This document shows positions 4,815 through 19,965 of a DNA stretch of 28,768 nt, in pieces (the first letter of the stretch is position 1; every line of letters begins with the position of its first letter). The notes under the pieces are model-generated. The model did not search any database. It worked only from the letters and a program-made list of their open reading frames with translations, and was not told the DNA's origin. A program made the position numbers and the translations under genes. Source of the DNA: a virus. The stretch is taken from positions 1-28,768 of IMG/VR virus record IMGVR_UViG_3300009082_000050, one strand, 5' to 3'.

Positions 4815-5402
4815 ATGCGAAAGATTTTAGGAACAAAAGATCAATATTATGAGCAAACAAAAAATGCACAGGTAAGCTTAATAAAAATGTATACAGGGCA
4901 AATTCGTAGTATAGCTTGTGGCCCAACATGCGCTGCAATGGCATTAGATATTTGCTGTTATGATATGTCAGTATTTACGCCAGGGGAACAGCCCGAAGAC
5001 TCTTTACTTATGATCTTTCATAATCCAGCCCACCTTCAGAAATTCAAAAAAACCAGGGATTTGGATTATAACAAATATCCGCCAAATGAAATACCACAAC
5101 TTTATCCCACAGTTATGGAAATAATATACAAAGAATCAGTTTGTGAATTTTCGTTCGGTCTCTCTTATGAAGAAATACGTCAGACTATCTGCAATGATTC
5201 ACCTGTACAAATTGTTGGGAAGTTTCCAGCAGGTGGCCATTATGTTCTAGTCGTTGGCTTTGATGATAAGGATAAAACGTTAATATATAATGACCCGTAT
5301 GCCTTGCAATGGCCAGATCATAATGGATATAACAGAATAATGGATCAGAAATTTTTCAATAAAAATATACAGAAACATAAAATAATTTATTATCCACAGT
5401 GA
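4815..5402 (+). CDS. C39-like papain-fold cysteine protease
   Basis: 195 residues. CGPTCAAMAL (Cys35) matches the catalytic cysteine region of peptidase C39-like proteins. GGHYVLVVGFDD (His142) followed by YNDPY (Asp160) gives the expected Cys-His-Asp order and spacing. There is no signal peptide, transmembrane segment or transporter domain, so it is a free-standing cytoplasmic protein unless released by lysis. AGAGG precedes the ATG. Possible roles are processing of a host or phage protein, or peptide cleavage in lysis. Its place beside the replication genes, under a long structured leader, does not settle this. Confidence 0.7.
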   Translation: MRKILGTKDQYYEQTKNAQVSLIKMYTGQIRSIACGPTCAAMALDICCYDMSVFTPGEQPEDSLLMIFHNPAHLQKFKKTRDLDYNKYPPNEIPQLYPTVMEIIYKESVCEFSFGLSYEEIRQTICNDSPVQIVGKFPAGGHYVLVVGFDDKDKTLIYNDPYALQWPDHNGYNRIMDQKFFNKNIQKHKIIYYPQ

Positions 5403-5645: not shown

Positions 5646-6074
5646 ATGGATAATAAAATAACACATAAAAATATAGTTGCATTACTTACACCGGAGTTTA
5701 TAAATTTCTGGTGTCAATATACTTTTTTTGATCTTAAGGATAATCAAGATAATGTATCGATTTTAATGACTGGTATTAAAAAGATAAACAGAGGCGAAAT
5801 GCCTCTAATGACTTTTAACTGGTTGTTTGAATCTTTTATTAATCAGGCAAGGGATGGTTGGAATAGAAAAGCTTTAAATAATTTGTATAAGTGGAGAATT
5901 GTGGAAGAGGCGGATCGGATATTGCTATTCGATAAAGATTTAAATAAGAAGTATGCTGATAGATATTTGGCTTTTTGTTTTTCTGATTTTCCTAATCAAC
6001 CACTTTGTTATTTCCGAAAAGAGATTCAAGCACTTATATGCGCTTTGTACATATTAAAGCAAAGGATGGAATAG
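5646..6074 (+). CDS. Paralog family A, member 1 (LITPEF protein)
   Basis: 142 residues. It shares three blocks with the products at 12321-12800 and 13654-14049: an N-terminal V-x-x-LLTPEFI block (residues about 11-20), a central FESF-x-x-QARDGWNRK block, and a C-terminal EIQALICAL block. The middle between blocks is unrelated in length and sequence. The family appears to be phage-specific with unknown function. It ends directly against the next gene (TAG then ATG), so it sits inside an operon. Confidence 0.7.
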   Translation: MDNKITHKNIVALLTPEFINFWCQYTFFDLKDNQDNVSILMTGIKKINRGEMPLMTFNWLFESFINQARDGWNRKALNNLYKWRIVEEADRILLFDKDLNKKYADRYLAFCFSDFPNQPLCYFRKEIQALICALYILKQRME

Positions 6075-8555: not shown

Positions 8556-9492
8556 AACTAACAAAGGCTTATACGACATAGAATCTGCAAGCATTATCTG
8601 GGGTGGTCGTGATATTGCCGAAAGCGAAATAGCCGCGGGCAGGAGGGGGATATTTGATAAAGTACCCACAAAAAAATCAGAGAGACATATGCCTGTCAAT
8701 ATCACGATTAAAGAACTACTCGACAAAATGGCCCCTATCATCGTAACGATCATTGACACAGACAAACGTCAGCGGCTGGAAAGTTTGTTGAAGCGTTGCC
8801 AGCTTGCACTTGAGTCGATTATCATTGTTCCTCCTATCGGGATAATCCCTGCTTTTCAGTTGCCCTCGGTTGAAGCCCCTAAACCGCAGAAAACAGCAAA
8901 GCGCGTGGGGAATCCATACAAGCCCGGCGATTATGTGAGGGTGACTGGGTTTAAGTATACTCATAAGAATAGGGCTGGATTGATGGATTACTTGATAAAT
9001 AGGGTTATAAAAGTTGATGAACCGCCTGGGCCTATGCGGCGCAAGTATATTCAGGTCGATAGTCCTGGATGGGTTATCAATATCAAAGACATAATCCCCG
9101 CAACCCGTGCAGAATACGAAGCCCAGGAAGCCGCAGAGCAGCAGACTGCAGAGCAGCCGTATCAATTCAGGATTGGTGATATTGTTGACGTGAGAGACGA
9201 TGTGCCAGAATGGTTAAAGGCGGAATGGGGTAGCATTTTTTATGATTATAATGGTGACGAGGCACCGAGGGAAGCAATAAAAATAATAGATATTGGTGAC
9301 GGAATAATGCAATCGGATAAATATTGGCGGTATCCATTAGCAGCCCTTAAACTACACACCGACACACCCGAAATGATCGACATAGTACCTGCATCCAGTC
9401 AATCGGATGAACAACTCAAACAATCGGGGGATTATTTGCCGCCCGATACAGTTGTTGATGATTGGATAAGGGAAGACCCAGAGCACGCATAA
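8548..9492 (+). CDS. Phage protein with two SH3/KOW-like modules
   Basis: 314 residues from the ATG at 8548; GGAGGAG sits 6 nt upstream. An ATG at 8530 lies in the preceding fossil. Residues 1-110 are helical with a proline-rich end. Two small beta-type modules follow: about 112-165 (YKPGDYVRVTG to GWVINIKDIIPAT) and about 185-250 (YQFRIGDIVDVRD to IKIIDIG). Each starts with a [KR]-x-GD-x-V-x-V motif typical of KOW/SH3-like barrels. An alanine/glutamine linker joins them. Codon use is somewhat richer in GC than its neighbours, suggesting recent acquisition. Function unknown, possibly nucleic-acid binding. Confidence 0.65.
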   Translation: MSKTNKGLYDIESASIIWGGRDIAESEIAAGRRGIFDKVPTKKSERHMPVNITIKELLDKMAPIIVTIIDTDKRQRLESLLKRCQLALESIIIVPPIGIIPAFQLPSVEAPKPQKTAKRVGNPYKPGDYVRVTGFKYTHKNRAGLMDYLINRVIKVDEPPGPMRRKYIQVDSPGWVINIKDIIPATRAEYEAQEAAEQQTAEQPYQFRIGDIVDVRDDVPEWLKAEWGSIFYDYNGDEAPREAIKIIDIGDGIMQSDKYWRYPLAALKLHTDTPEMIDIVPASSQSDEQLKQSGDYLPPDTVVDDWIREDPEHA

Positions 9493-9736: not shown

Positions 9737-9815
9737 GCAGCCCTGGGCTTATCTTGCAGGTTCATTAAATTTTTGGGACTACCGACGTCTAAACCCTGAA
9801 TTATTGGAGGCGTAA
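9717..9815 (+). pseudogene. Truncated ASCH-domain gene
   Basis: 32 codons from ATG 9717, preceded by GGGAGGGG. The first residues MKALSIKQPWAYL are the signature start of ASCH-domain proteins (ALSI-[RK]-QPW), which bind nucleic acid or modified nucleosides. After about residue 14 the family match stops. The frame runs into the second copy of the 29-bp repeat and ends NPELLEA. A complete ASCH protein would be about 110-150 residues. I read this as a deletion fusion between two genes. Confidence 0.75.
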
Positions 9816-9819
9816 ATGA
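9791..9819. repeat. 29-bp direct repeat carrying a ribosome binding site, copy 2
   Basis: Identical to 9496-9524. It supplies the stop of the truncated ASCH frame and the GGAGG plus ATG of the following gene. Confidence 0.95.
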
Positions 9820-10013
9820 ACGTAAAAAAAGAAGTGTATGACAAAATTATTAAGTCGTTATCCAATGAATTAAAAGCGTGTAAATACAAAATAGCACAAA
9901 ACAAATACGAATTCAAAAAGTTAACTGAGCAGCAGACTATCTTAAAAAGGGAATGCGCAGAGCTTACAATAATGTTAAAAGGGTTAACAGACAAAAGGGA
10001 GGCTAAATCATAA
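9816..10013 (+). CDS. Small coiled-coil protein
   Basis: 65 residues, almost entirely helical and charged, with heptad-like spacing (KKEVYDKIIKSLSNELKACK). The start is set by GGAGG in the 29-bp repeat. Function unknown. Confidence 0.6.
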   Translation: MNVKKEVYDKIIKSLSNELKACKYKIAQNKYEFKKLTEQQTILKRECAELTIMLKGLTDKREAKS

Positions 10014-10047
10014 AAATTAAAAGATTTCAAGGGGCAGGAGGCAATAA

Positions 10048-10443
10048 ATGCAAATAGATAAACAAAATCCCGTTGACCCGTGGCTATATCCCGGGTGTCC
10101 GTGTTGGTGCTGGAATAACGGACAAGATAATAAAGACATAATGTTATTTGAAAAGATATCTGGCATTGGAGAAAATATATTTTATACAACACAAAACAAG
10201 GGTGTTTATATGTTCGACCATTACCGTCCAATCGGCACCCCGTGGGATTTTGCACCAGATACCGCAAGGGTTATCGACATTAACAGTGAGGGTGTCTGCT
10301 CTTTTCAGGAGACGGAGGAGGACGGATCATACATTGTTGATAAATGGCTACAGCTGCCCTATTTAATCCTCTGGAGAGAATGCCCAGAGCATTTAAAGGG
10401 CAGAATCTTGCCACGCCCTGAATGGGCAGGAGGGAATAATTAA
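10048..10443 (+). CDS. Phage hypothetical protein
   Basis: 131 residues with GGCAGGAGG upstream. The N-terminus is proline-, cysteine- and tryptophan-rich (YPGCPCWCWNNG), followed by a mostly beta sequence with a central YRPIGTPWDFAPDTA. No family recognised. The GGGCAGGAGG ribosome-binding cassette is shared with the next two genes. Confidence 0.65.
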   Translation: MQIDKQNPVDPWLYPGCPCWCWNNGQDNKDIMLFEKISGIGENIFYTTQNKGVYMFDHYRPIGTPWDFAPDTARVIDINSEGVCSFQETEEDGSYIVDKWLQLPYLILWRECPEHLKGRILPRPEWAGGNN

Positions 10444-12320: not shown

Positions 12321-12800
12321 ATGGAATATCAAAAGGTAATTGATCTTATAACGCCTGATTTTCTAAAGTTTTGTTGTGATAATAGCTTTGATTATGAGGC
12401 AGGGCTGTCATGTCACAGTAGACTTTATATTTGTTTTAAGGGTGAGTCAATCTGTCTATTAGATTATATACCAACCATGATCAAGTTAGGTCGTTTTTGT
12501 GAAATTCCTATGTATAAGTTTTTACATTTTCAATCTCTTTTACATCAAGCAATGGATGGATTGAATAGAAAGATTAAAGACACTTTTATTTTTATAGATT
12601 ATACTTACGTTCCATCTTTTTGTGTAAATGAAATGGTTTTTTCAGCATGTTATTTTCCAGCTGAAATTCTTGACAGAACGATAACACCTTTTTTATGTAA
12701 CGATTTTGAATCTGACCAGCTCCTCCGTCCTGAACTTCAAGTTCTTATCTGTGCACTAAAAACTGTGATGGAATGGAGCAAAAGGAGTAGCAATGCGTAA
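12321..12800 (+). CDS. Paralog family A, member 2
   Basis: 159 residues with AAAGGAGG upstream. It shares the three family blocks: YQKVIDLITPDFLKFCC at the N-terminus, FQSLLHQAMDGLNRK in the middle, and LLRPELQVLICALK near the C-terminus. It is the longest member, with a longer variable segment after the central block. Cysteines at CC and elsewhere are not shared by all members. Function unknown. Confidence 0.7.
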   Translation: MEYQKVIDLITPDFLKFCCDNSFDYEAGLSCHSRLYICFKGESICLLDYIPTMIKLGRFCEIPMYKFLHFQSLLHQAMDGLNRKIKDTFIFIDYTYVPSFCVNEMVFSACYFPAEILDRTITPFLCNDFESDQLLRPELQVLICALKTVMEWSKRSSNA

Positions 12801-13441: not shown

Positions 13442-13664
13442 GGTTAAAACTCGTGAAGAATTCAATCAAAAATATAATTATTCAAAATGCAAGGATAAGG
13501 AATTAAATGTATTACTGCGTTGTTCACATTGCAAGTATTGTGTAGATTTTGAAGAAGAGCTTCCAATAGGTTTTTGTAGCCGCATGGATGGGATGTTTAT
13601 TCGTGATTGTACAATTTATTTAAATCATTTTTGCAAGTTATGGAGGCAAAAACATGACATATGA
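13437..13664 (+). CDS. Cysteine-rich small protein
   Basis: 75 residues starting in the 30-bp repeat. Cysteines occur as C-x(10)-CSHCKYC, then C, C, C, a pattern expected for zinc binding. No named family. It overlaps the next gene by 11 nt. Confidence 0.65.
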   Translation: MKVKTREEFNQKYNYSKCKDKELNVLLRCSHCKYCVDFEEELPIGFCSRMDGMFIRDCTIYLNHFCKLWRQKHDI

Positions 13665-14049
13665 CAATGTGGTAAAACTGATAACACCTGAATTTATCGG
13701 AGAATGCTGCAAGCTGTCAAAGGCTTTCAAAAAACATAAAACACATTCCGAGTATGAGCAGATTGCAGAGATCACCCGAGAGATTGCTACGGCAAAATCG
13801 AAAAAGCAAAAGTATAGTATAAAGAATTTCGAGTCCCTGCTGTTTGAGGCTTGGATTGGCTGGAATCGGGTGCATAAAGAATCTGGCTTGATTATTGATC
13901 TTAATTATGATAGTTGTATGTCATTTGACAATAATGGGTCTTCAAATGTTTCTGTATTTTATTACTCAGGATTAATCCCTAAAAGGCCACTTTCGCCTGA
14001 AATCCAGGCTCTTGTGTGCGTGTTGTCTAATGCAATTAAAAGGGGGTAA
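13654..14049 (+). CDS. Paralog family A, member 3
   Basis: 131 residues. The family blocks are YDNVVKLITPEFIGECC, FESLLFEAWIGWNRV and LSPEIQALVCVLSNA. It differs from the other members mainly in the segment between the first and second blocks, which is lysine-rich here. The ATG lies inside the previous gene, with GGAGG nearby. Function unknown. Confidence 0.7.
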   Translation: MTYDNVVKLITPEFIGECCKLSKAFKKHKTHSEYEQIAEITREIATAKSKKQKYSIKNFESLLFEAWIGWNRVHKESGLIIDLNYDSCMSFDNNGSSNVSVFYYSGLIPKRPLSPEIQALVCVLSNAIKRG

Positions 14050-18435: not shown

Positions 18436-18508
18436 GCACCGTTAACTTATCGGTTAGAGTGTCTGCCTTATAAGCAGAGGGTAAATGGTTCAATTCCATT
18501 ACGGTGCA
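18436..18508 (+). tRNA. tRNA-Ile (anticodon UAU)
   Basis: 73 nt. Acceptor GCACCGT/ACGGTGC with discriminator A. The D arm contains GG. The anticodon stem TCTGC/GCAGA encloses CTTATAA with anticodon TAT, and the T loop is TTCAATT. No CCA is encoded. It reads AUA, a codon abundant in this AT-rich genome. Confidence 0.9.
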
Positions 18509-18533
18509 AGTTAATAATAGGGAGGAAGATAAA

Positions 18534-18734
18534 ATGGAAATAGAACAGATAGATTTTTATATTAATAAAGATCATATGGATAGTTCATTCCCACCAATAT
18601 TTGTGGAAAAAAGTATAATAAATGAATTTGATGATTTAGACTCATGCTTTAGGTTTGCAAAAGAACGGTTAATAGTATTCCGCAAAGCATATTCTTTGCC
18701 GGATGCTGTTACTATGATACATTTTACAGAATAA
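18534..18734 (+). CDS. Small hypothetical protein between tRNAs
   Basis: 66 residues from ATG 18534 with GGAGG upstream; an upstream in-frame start at 18504 overlaps the tRNA. Acidic N-terminus (MEIEQIDFYINKDHMDSSF), then a helical segment. No recognised motif. Confidence 0.6.
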   Translation: MEIEQIDFYINKDHMDSSFPPIFVEKSIINEFDDLDSCFRFAKERLIVFRKAYSLPDAVTMIHFTE

Positions 18735-18739
18735 TTTAT

Positions 18740-18810
18740 GGCGGTTTAGTGAAATGGTATCACGCAAGAATTTCAATCTTGCATAAAGGGTTCAATTCCC
18801 TTAACCGCTA
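18740..18810 (+). tRNA. tRNA-Glu (anticodon UUC)
   Basis: 71 nt. Acceptor GGCGGTT/AACCGCT (first pair G-U) with discriminator A. D stem GTGA/TCAC with GG in the loop; anticodon stem CAAGA/TCTTG with loop ATTTCAA; T loop TTCAATT. No CCA is encoded. Confidence 0.88.
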
Positions 18811-18814
18811 TTGT

Positions 18815-18884
18815 ATCCCTGTAGTGCAATGTAGCACGACAGCCCTTGAAGCTGTTTATCAAGGTTCGAGTCCTTGCAGGGATG
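18815..18884 (+). tRNA. tRNA-Gln (anticodon UUG), non-canonical loops
   Basis: 70 nt. Acceptor ATCCCTG/CAGGGAT with discriminator G, as in glutamine tRNAs. The anticodon stem ACAGC/GCTGT encloses CCTTGAA, so the anticodon is TTG but position 33 is C instead of the near-universal U. The D loop (AATGTA) is one base short and lacks the GG pair. The T arm (AAGGTTCGAGTCCTT) is normal. Confidence 0.75.
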
Positions 18885-18910
18885 AATATTTTTTAGAAAA
18901 GGAGTTTTAA

Positions 18911-19048
18911 ATGGACTTTTTTATTTTAATAATTTTATTTTTAATTTACATAACAAATTTTAAGACACCAACAACAGGACAATCGGATAAGATAATTCTC
19001 CTTTTAAAGGAAATTAAAGAATTATTAAAATCAAAGGAAATAAAATGA
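18911..19048 (+). CDS. Small single-pass membrane protein
   Basis: 45 residues with AAAGGAG upstream. The N-terminal 15 residues are a membrane helix (MDFFILIILFLIYI). A short soluble part ends in an amphipathic lysine-rich helix. Its TGA overlaps the next ATG, so it belongs to the same unit as the overprinted pair and may be part of a membrane/lysis complex. Confidence 0.6.
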   Translation: MDFFILIILFLIYITNFKTPTTGQSDKIILLLKEIKELLKSKEIK

Positions 19049-19500
19049 ATGAAGGAATCAAAATTTTGTGGATTATTATCGGTGTTATTGTTTTTCTTGG
19101 GATTTTTTCTTCAATCGGATCATATATATGCGGATACTATTATGGATCAAAAACAATTTCTATTGTTGAAGATTCAGGAATCCAATCAATTATTGGCAGT
19201 CTTAGAAAACGAATTGAACAGCAAGCAGATATTATACAATCAGCTCTCTCTGAATCTGACAAAATCAGAGCAGACTATAAACTTGCAAGAGAGCGCCTTG
19301 ATAATGCAAAAAAGACAATTGATAGTATTACAATTAAGAATAATGAACTTGCAAGCCTTAATCAGGCAGCAACAAAAGAAATCAGAGAGGCTAGAAAGTT
19401 ACTTGAAACAATCGGAACAAGTAATATTACTTCAACTGCAATCATTATCGAACTTAAGCGAATTAACAAAGAAATTGCAGATTCAATTAACGGTGAGTAA
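19045..19500 (+). CDS. TM plus coiled-coil protein, i-spanin-like topology (frame 1 of overprinted pair)
   Basis: 151 residues with AAAGGA 6-7 nt upstream. One N-terminal membrane segment (about 7-34, ILWIIIGVIVFLGIF onward, with a glycine/tyrosine-rich end) is followed by about 110 residues of charged coiled coil. This is the topology of inner-membrane spanins (Rz). Another long frame, 19049-19573, lies inside it on the same strand. Only 2 of 30 isoleucine codons are ATA, unlike neighbouring genes, and every codon ending in TA is followed by C or T, so no stop arises in the other frame. This supports simultaneous coding. Confidence 0.65.
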   Translation: MNEGIKILWIIIGVIVFLGIFSSIGSYICGYYYGSKTISIVEDSGIQSIIGSLRKRIEQQADIIQSALSESDKIRADYKLARERLDNAKKTIDSITIKNNELASLNQAATKEIREARKLLETIGTSNITSTAIIIELKRINKEIADSINGE

Positions 19501-19573
19501 AATTATTGTGATAAGTGAAGGGGTGTTACTTATTAGCGCGATAACTTGGGCAATAGTTGAGAGTTGTGATTAA
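19049..19573 (+). CDS. Secreted coiled-coil protein with C-terminal TM (frame 2 of overprinted pair)
   Basis: 174 residues, beginning 4 nt after the other frame's ATG, so both could use the same ribosome binding site. Residues 1-28 look like a signal peptide (LLSVLLFFLGFF, then HIYA before Asp29) with a signal-peptidase-I-like site and no lipobox cysteine. Residues 33-148 are a glutamine/leucine-rich coiled coil. Residues about 151-170 (IIVISEGVLLISAITWAIV) form a C-terminal membrane helix encoded mostly beyond the other frame's stop. The topology is unlike a classical Rz1 lipoprotein but could act as an envelope-spanning partner. If only one frame is real, either could be it. Confidence 0.55.
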   Translation: MKESKFCGLLSVLLFFLGFFLQSDHIYADTIMDQKQFLLLKIQESNQLLAVLENELNSKQILYNQLSLNLTKSEQTINLQESALIMQKRQLIVLQLRIMNLQALIRQQQKKSERLESYLKQSEQVILLQLQSLSNLSELTKKLQIQLTVSKIIVISEGVLLISAITWAIVESCD

Positions 19574-19587
19574 ATAAGGAGGTATAG

Positions 19588-19965
19588 ATGTTACTTATTA
19601 TTGTACAAATAATACTTATTATATTGGGGCTTTATTGTGTTTTTCTTTTTTTCCGAAATAATGCTGTTTTAAAATTTCGGTCATATGTATCTGATTTAAT
19701 GTTTTTGTGTTTTAGAGAAGAGGCTATTATAACTCATATCAATATAACGGAAAAATTAAATTCTGGTGACTATTCTATTGATTTGCTTGAGAATCAATGG
19801 AAGACATATAGAGAGGGTTGTGATAATATAATAGAAGAATACGAATCAATTTCTTATATAAAAATGTTATTTTCTATTTTCAAGCCGTTAAAGATGTGTG
19901 CATGGTATTCCGCTGATTTTTGCAATAAATTGGAATCCGTAAATATTAAGGAGATAATAAAATGA
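19588..19965 (+). CDS. Single-pass membrane protein
   Basis: 125 residues with GGAGG upstream. The N-terminal membrane helix (LLIIVQIILIILGLYCVFLFF) is followed by a soluble, mainly helical domain. Possibly part of the same membrane-associated operon. It overlaps the next gene by 4 nt. Confidence 0.6.
   Translation: MLLIIVQIILIILGLYCVFLFFRNNAVLKFRSYVSDLMFLCFREEAIITHINITEKLNSGDYSIDLLENQWKTYREGCDNIIEEYESISYIKMLFSIFKPLKMCAWYSADFCNKLESVNIKEIIK

Follow-up and report, generated by a model that had tools for sequence, protein, structure and literature searches.

Two long open reading frames on the plus strand of a tailed-phage genome share almost all of their sequence. ORF1 (19045..19500, 151 aa) has an N-terminal transmembrane segment (TM; about residues 7-25) followed by a coiled-coil-like helix, and ORF2 (19049..19573, 174 aa), which lies in the +1 frame relative to ORF1, has an N-terminal hydrophobic segment, a long helix and a C-terminal TM. 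They overlap over 452 nt (19049-19500), confirming the coordinates of a preliminary description that had placed two same-strand frames 4 nt apart with an overlap of about 450 bp. Both begin in a double start, ATGAATG (19045..19051, plus strand), behind a single Shine-Dalgarno (SD)-like AAGGA (19034..19038, plus strand), which stands 6 nt before the first ATG and 10 nt before the second. The same motif also ends a further ORF, which the preliminary description did not mention: a 45-aa ORF (18911..19048, plus strand; from the sequence, hydropathy and an SD scan) with an N-terminal hydrophobic segment and an AAGGAG 6 nt 5' of its start, whose TGA (19046-19048) sits within ATGAATG. From this TGA to its own stop the ORF2 frame contains no stop codon, while the third frame across the pair contains 26. 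Judged by hydropathy, the non-overlapping 3' part of ORF2 (19501..19573, plus strand) encodes the greater part of its C-terminal TM. ORF2 fills an 87-nt gap and ends right before the SD of the next gene, 14 nt short of its start. That gene (19588..19965, plus strand) encodes 125 aa with an N-terminal TM, and its start is preceded by a perfect AAGGAGGT. In PHROGs and Pfam, the 45-aa ORF had no family match and the gene at 19588 nothing above the cut-off.

The stretch analysed, referred to here as the window, is the IMG/VR virus record IMGVR_UViG_3300009082_000050 over its full 28,768 bases. The carrier of the gene pair is a tailed phage, and a large terminase, a replisome organizer and a PAPS reductase are all encoded in the window (PHROGs/Pfam). 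The replication and PAPS-reductase genes are similar to those of phages of Firmicutes, bacteria that mostly lack an outer membrane. Another contig of this virus (IMGVR_UViG_3300009037_000213) covers 10.2 kb of the window and departs from it at two positions, 19773 and 21592, both outside ORF1 and ORF2; being identical over the pair, it rules out an assembly error as the cause of the double openness.

Several other features deserve mention in their own right. Genes for tRNA-Ile (anticodon TAT), tRNA-Glu and tRNA-Gln lie at 18436-18885, directly 5' of the pair; ATA encodes Ile more often in this phage than any other codon (388 of 907), and the tRNA-Ile may be the phage's own means of decoding it. 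The gene at 79-564 encodes a protein with a tandem SVRDSVGASV-like repeat, and this repeat accounts for long open stretches in its other frames. Long antisense ORFs do occur in this genome, as on the minus strand over other genes at 8716-9165 (149 aa) and 9779-10267 (162 aa). Three small proteins (5646-6074, 12321-12800 and 13654-14049) are alike at their start (LLTPEFI, LITPDFL and LITPEFI, respectively) and are probably paralogues, judging by these residues. The sole lysis candidate found is a C39-like peptidase at 4815-5402 (PF13529, E 9e-12; weak match to a phage endolysin family, E 0.012), 14 kb away from the pair. Finally, a minor head protein at L006:6638-8602 (phrog_4611, E 2e-33, residues 15-276) appears from its sequence to be broken by an intein-like insertion: part of phrog_85 is matched further along, the end reading ...VWSGN|CMHSM.

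The probability that both frames of the pair are open was calculated by exact dynamic programming, with the protein of one frame held fixed and codons drawn according to genome-average usage. Given the ORF1 protein, 16.6 stops are expected in the ORF2 frame and the frame is open with P = 6.4e-10; given the ORF2 protein, the ORF1 frame is open with P = 2.0e-6. When the codon usage of each single gene is applied instead, the least favourable case gives 4.8e-6 and 2.9e-4, respectively; as the pair was selected after scanning many windows, P values near 1e-6 or larger need discounting. None of 20,000 synonymous recodings attained the 149 open codons seen here, and the longest off-frame open run in the other genes, 94 codons, belongs to a tandem-repeat gene. 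As a positive control, lambda Rz/Rz1 gave P = 0.09, the openness test being weak for short overlaps in GC-richer DNA. The double openness of ORF1 and ORF2 is not a product of chance, and the earlier proposal of overprinted genes whose frames are both kept open is statistically well supported. Tandem repetition within the pair was ruled out as its source, just two repeat pairs of 12-13 nt being present.

The overlap is also visible in the codons of ORF1, where ATA is shunned exactly where ORF2 would gain a stop. An ATA followed by a purine in ORF1 creates TAA or TAG in the ORF2 frame. None of the 24 Ile codons before a purine is ATA, as against two of the six before a pyrimidine; in the other phage genes ATA makes up 44% of Ile codons before purines, giving P = 8e-7 for the absence from all 24. 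The counts agree with what had been noticed from the letters, namely that ORF1 has only two ATA among 30 Ile codons (with 19 ATT and nine ATC), that its neighbours use ATA freely (53%, 73% and 88% of Ile codons in the genes at 19588, 19962 and 18504; 43% in the other phage genes), and that no TA-ending codon of ORF1 precedes A or G, the three NTA codons being followed by T, C and C. As to which frame came first, codon usage correlates with that of the genome at 0.74 for ORF1, as for the phage's other genes, versus 0.42 for ORF2, as for shifted frames. By the codon-usage criterion for telling a newer from an ancestral overlapping frame (PMC3744397), ORF1 is therefore probably the older frame and ORF2 the overprinted one. 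The coding potential of ORF1 is normal, and that of ORF2 (-0.096 bits per codon) is ordinary for an off-frame reading.

At the protein level, the N-terminal TM and coiled coil attributed to ORF1 both find support, the former being clear by hydropathy and the latter favoured by heptad statistics (P = 0.015). Relative to what a fixed ORF2 protein would impose, ORF1 is enriched in Leu and Ile, its N-terminal segment is more strongly hydrophobic, and a 3.5-residue periodicity is present. AlphaFold run without an alignment gave helices at low confidence (pLDDT 59.3). Weak family matches of ORF1 (E 0.002-0.09, PHROGs/Pfam) were set aside as coiled-coil noise, and its sequence matches in the PDB were weak coiled-coil resemblances.

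For ORF2, which had been described as having a signal peptide, a coiled coil and a C-terminal TM, the TM is borne out by hydropathy and the coiled coil is not, its heptad pattern being non-significant and within the range of a shadow cast by ORF1. The N-terminal hydrophobicity is likewise no stronger than the shadow of the ORF1 TM (P = 0.17), and both features could be such shadows. The C-terminal TM (residues 152-170, KD19 2.3) is no shadow of this kind, since it is mostly encoded in the 73 nt past the ORF1 stop; among random 26-codon stretches drawn from the window, about 0.8% are both open and as hydrophobic. Composition was compared with the expectation when the ORF1 protein is fixed and ORF2 is kept open under genome usage: residues 30-149 contain no Pro or Gly where 7.3 are expected (P = 0.0004), and the net charge is +3 instead of about +17. 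If ORF1's own usage is taken as the model, the composition is only weakly unusual (P = 0.23 for Pro/Gly, 0.05 for charge). Leu makes up 21% and Gln 13% of the protein. AlphaFold without an alignment modelled ORF2 as a single long helix (pLDDT 89.5), and a fold search with this model in BFVD gave no match. In the sequence, Lys precedes the C-terminal TM, and Glu and Asp follow it; these flanking charges fit a cytoplasmic C-terminus poorly.

Relatives of the pair were sought widely. Scans of IMG/VR with either frame returned the same virus only, as did the terminase, capsid, portal, ParB-like and neighbour proteins as queries, and tblastn of either frame gave no match in phages (E up to 1) or plasmids (E up to 0.01). 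In scans of genome contigs the terminase had no relative and the replication protein one weak match. Relatives of the PAPS reductase (43-58% identity) lie in other contexts, where the pair is absent.

We consider it likely that ORF1 and ORF2 are both genes, and assign a probability of roughly 0.75 to the fuller reading, in which they form a real double-coding pair, ORF1 being the older gene and ORF2 overprinted on it, and are made together, both products being helical, anchored in the membrane and active on the host envelope. If instead ORF1 were the sole gene, ORF2 would be an accident of an ATA-poor, perhaps newly acquired, codon usage. It is ORF1 and not ORF2 that has the coding potential and codon usage of a normal gene, no homologue of ORF2 is known, and permuting ORF1's own synonymous codons leaves ORF2 open with P = 0.007, a value that is over-conservative because the overlap itself has already shaped ORF1 usage. 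We nevertheless regard this explanation as unlikely: P stays at or below 4.8e-6 under every other gene's codon usage and is 9.7e-6 with the pooled usage of low-ATA genes, ATA is missing solely at stop-making positions, and ORF2 differs in composition from the shadow expectation, besides running beyond the ORF1 stop into a TM and ending right before the next SD. The converse, with ORF2 as the sole gene and ORF1 accidental, could appeal to the greater length of ORF2 and to its filling the gap up to the next gene, yet is the least probable of the explanations considered, given the probability of 2e-6 that ORF1 would then be open and the normal coding potential, heptad periodicity and better-placed SD of ORF1. 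Scarcely more probable is a programmed +1 frameshift, by which the 3' part of ORF2 would serve as an alternative end of ORF1 carrying a C-terminal TM, with no start of its own. The TM does follow directly on the ORF1 stop and in the +1 frame, but a shift so late would demand neither a preceding run of 149 open codons nor a frame that opens with ATG.

The pair had also been likened to spanins; on this reading ORF1 would be the i-spanin and ORF2 an atypical partner attacking the outer membrane during lysis. The layout of ORF1, an N-terminal TM with a coiled coil, resembles that of an i-spanin, and overlaps between spanin genes are frequent: of 528 two-component systems, 182 are embedded and 228 overlapped (PMC6139136). 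Against this, the lipobox treated as required for o- and u-spanins (consensus [LVI][ASTVI][GAS]C; PMC6139136) is absent from ORF2, whose only two Cys, at residues 7 (SKFC) and 173 (VESC), do not fit, and from ORF1 too. PHROGs and Pfam gave no spanin family match for the pair and revealed no endolysin or holin beside it, and with replication and PAPS-reductase genes resembling those of Firmicutes phages an outer membrane of the host is uncertain. The likeness to spanins is thus not upheld, and we think a spanin system quite improbable. As a role for the double-coding pair, we slightly favour superinfection exclusion or some other alteration of the host membrane over lysis, and we hold any named function with low confidence.

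How two proteins might be made from this site is suggested by its geometry. Here an AUGNAUG behind one SD opens two long frames, and the RNA structure round the double start is nothing unusual (z 0.27). On the double-coding reading, ORF1 would be the older gene for a membrane-anchored helical protein with an N-terminal TM and a coiled coil, and ORF2 would have been overprinted on it later in the +1 frame, running on past the ORF1 stop into its C-terminal TM. One initiation region would serve both, ribosomes positioned by AAGGA starting at either AUG of AUGAAUG; alternatively, ribosomes could be supplied by release from the 45-aa membrane peptide, whose UGA lies within the motif, AUGA translational coupling being documented (PMC6728339). 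We lean, with some reserve, towards such a shared start. A single mRNA would then yield two envelope proteins, the start site fixing their ratio; both are predicted to be anchored in the cytoplasmic membrane, to have their helices outside it and to cooperate with or oppose each other on the host envelope. More tentative, and somewhat doubtful in our view, is the idea that the 45-aa peptide, ORF1 and ORF2 make up a three-protein membrane module from one packed translation unit, in which ORF1 and ORF2, one of the two a recently overprinted orphan, would be produced at a fixed ratio and work with or against each other.

The double-coding signal is strong over about 150 codons, and near-complete overlaps from adjacent AUGs are almost undescribed. 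Should such a module be real, it would be a natural phage example of shared-start dual decoding, of which PMC9841429 gives few examples from bacteria. As has been remarked for o-spanins (PMC6139136), gene callers are biased against overlapping genes; one of the two ORFs here would probably be missed by them.

Among known systems, lambda Rz/Rz1 resembles the pair in strand, relative frame and the coding of two envelope proteins, one with an N-terminal TM and a coiled coil. However, the gene for the 60-aa lipoprotein Rz1 has its start 220 nt inside Rz, whereas here the starts are 4 nt apart, no lipobox is present and ORF2 has a C-terminal TM. The unimolecular spanin gp11 of phage T1 (PMC6139136) shares with the proposed ORF2 protein an N-terminal export signal and a C-terminal TM, but it carries a lipobox, and its periplasmic domain is predicted to be mainly beta, while ORF2 is helical and lacks a lipobox. 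In Pseudomonas phage Fc02, olg1 and olg2 are likewise two phage ORFs in different frames with close out-of-frame starts (25 nt apart), at least one product having been shown to exclude other phages (PMC9936078); the proteins are unrelated to those described here, where one SD precedes two starts 4 nt apart and both proteins have membrane segments. The closest parallel in start geometry is Thermus rpmH/rnpA, in which AUGGAUG behind one SD gives two proteins and which PMC9841429 cites as the sole bacterial precedent for an ambiguous start site that opens two frames. The same-start, near-complete overlap is accordingly unusual, as had been said of it, without being unprecedented. In both systems the AUGs are one nucleotide apart (AUGGAUG versus AUGAAUG), a single SD serves different frames and one gene lies fully or almost fully within the other. 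Dual initiation has been demonstrated for rpmH/rnpA; for the phage pair it is suggested by the geometry of the sequence. The Thermus genes encode ribosomal protein L34 and the RNase P protein; the phage products would be two membrane-anchored helical proteins, from a pair set apart by its 452-nt overlap, by an ORF2 that outruns ORF1 and by the stop of a third ORF within the start motif.
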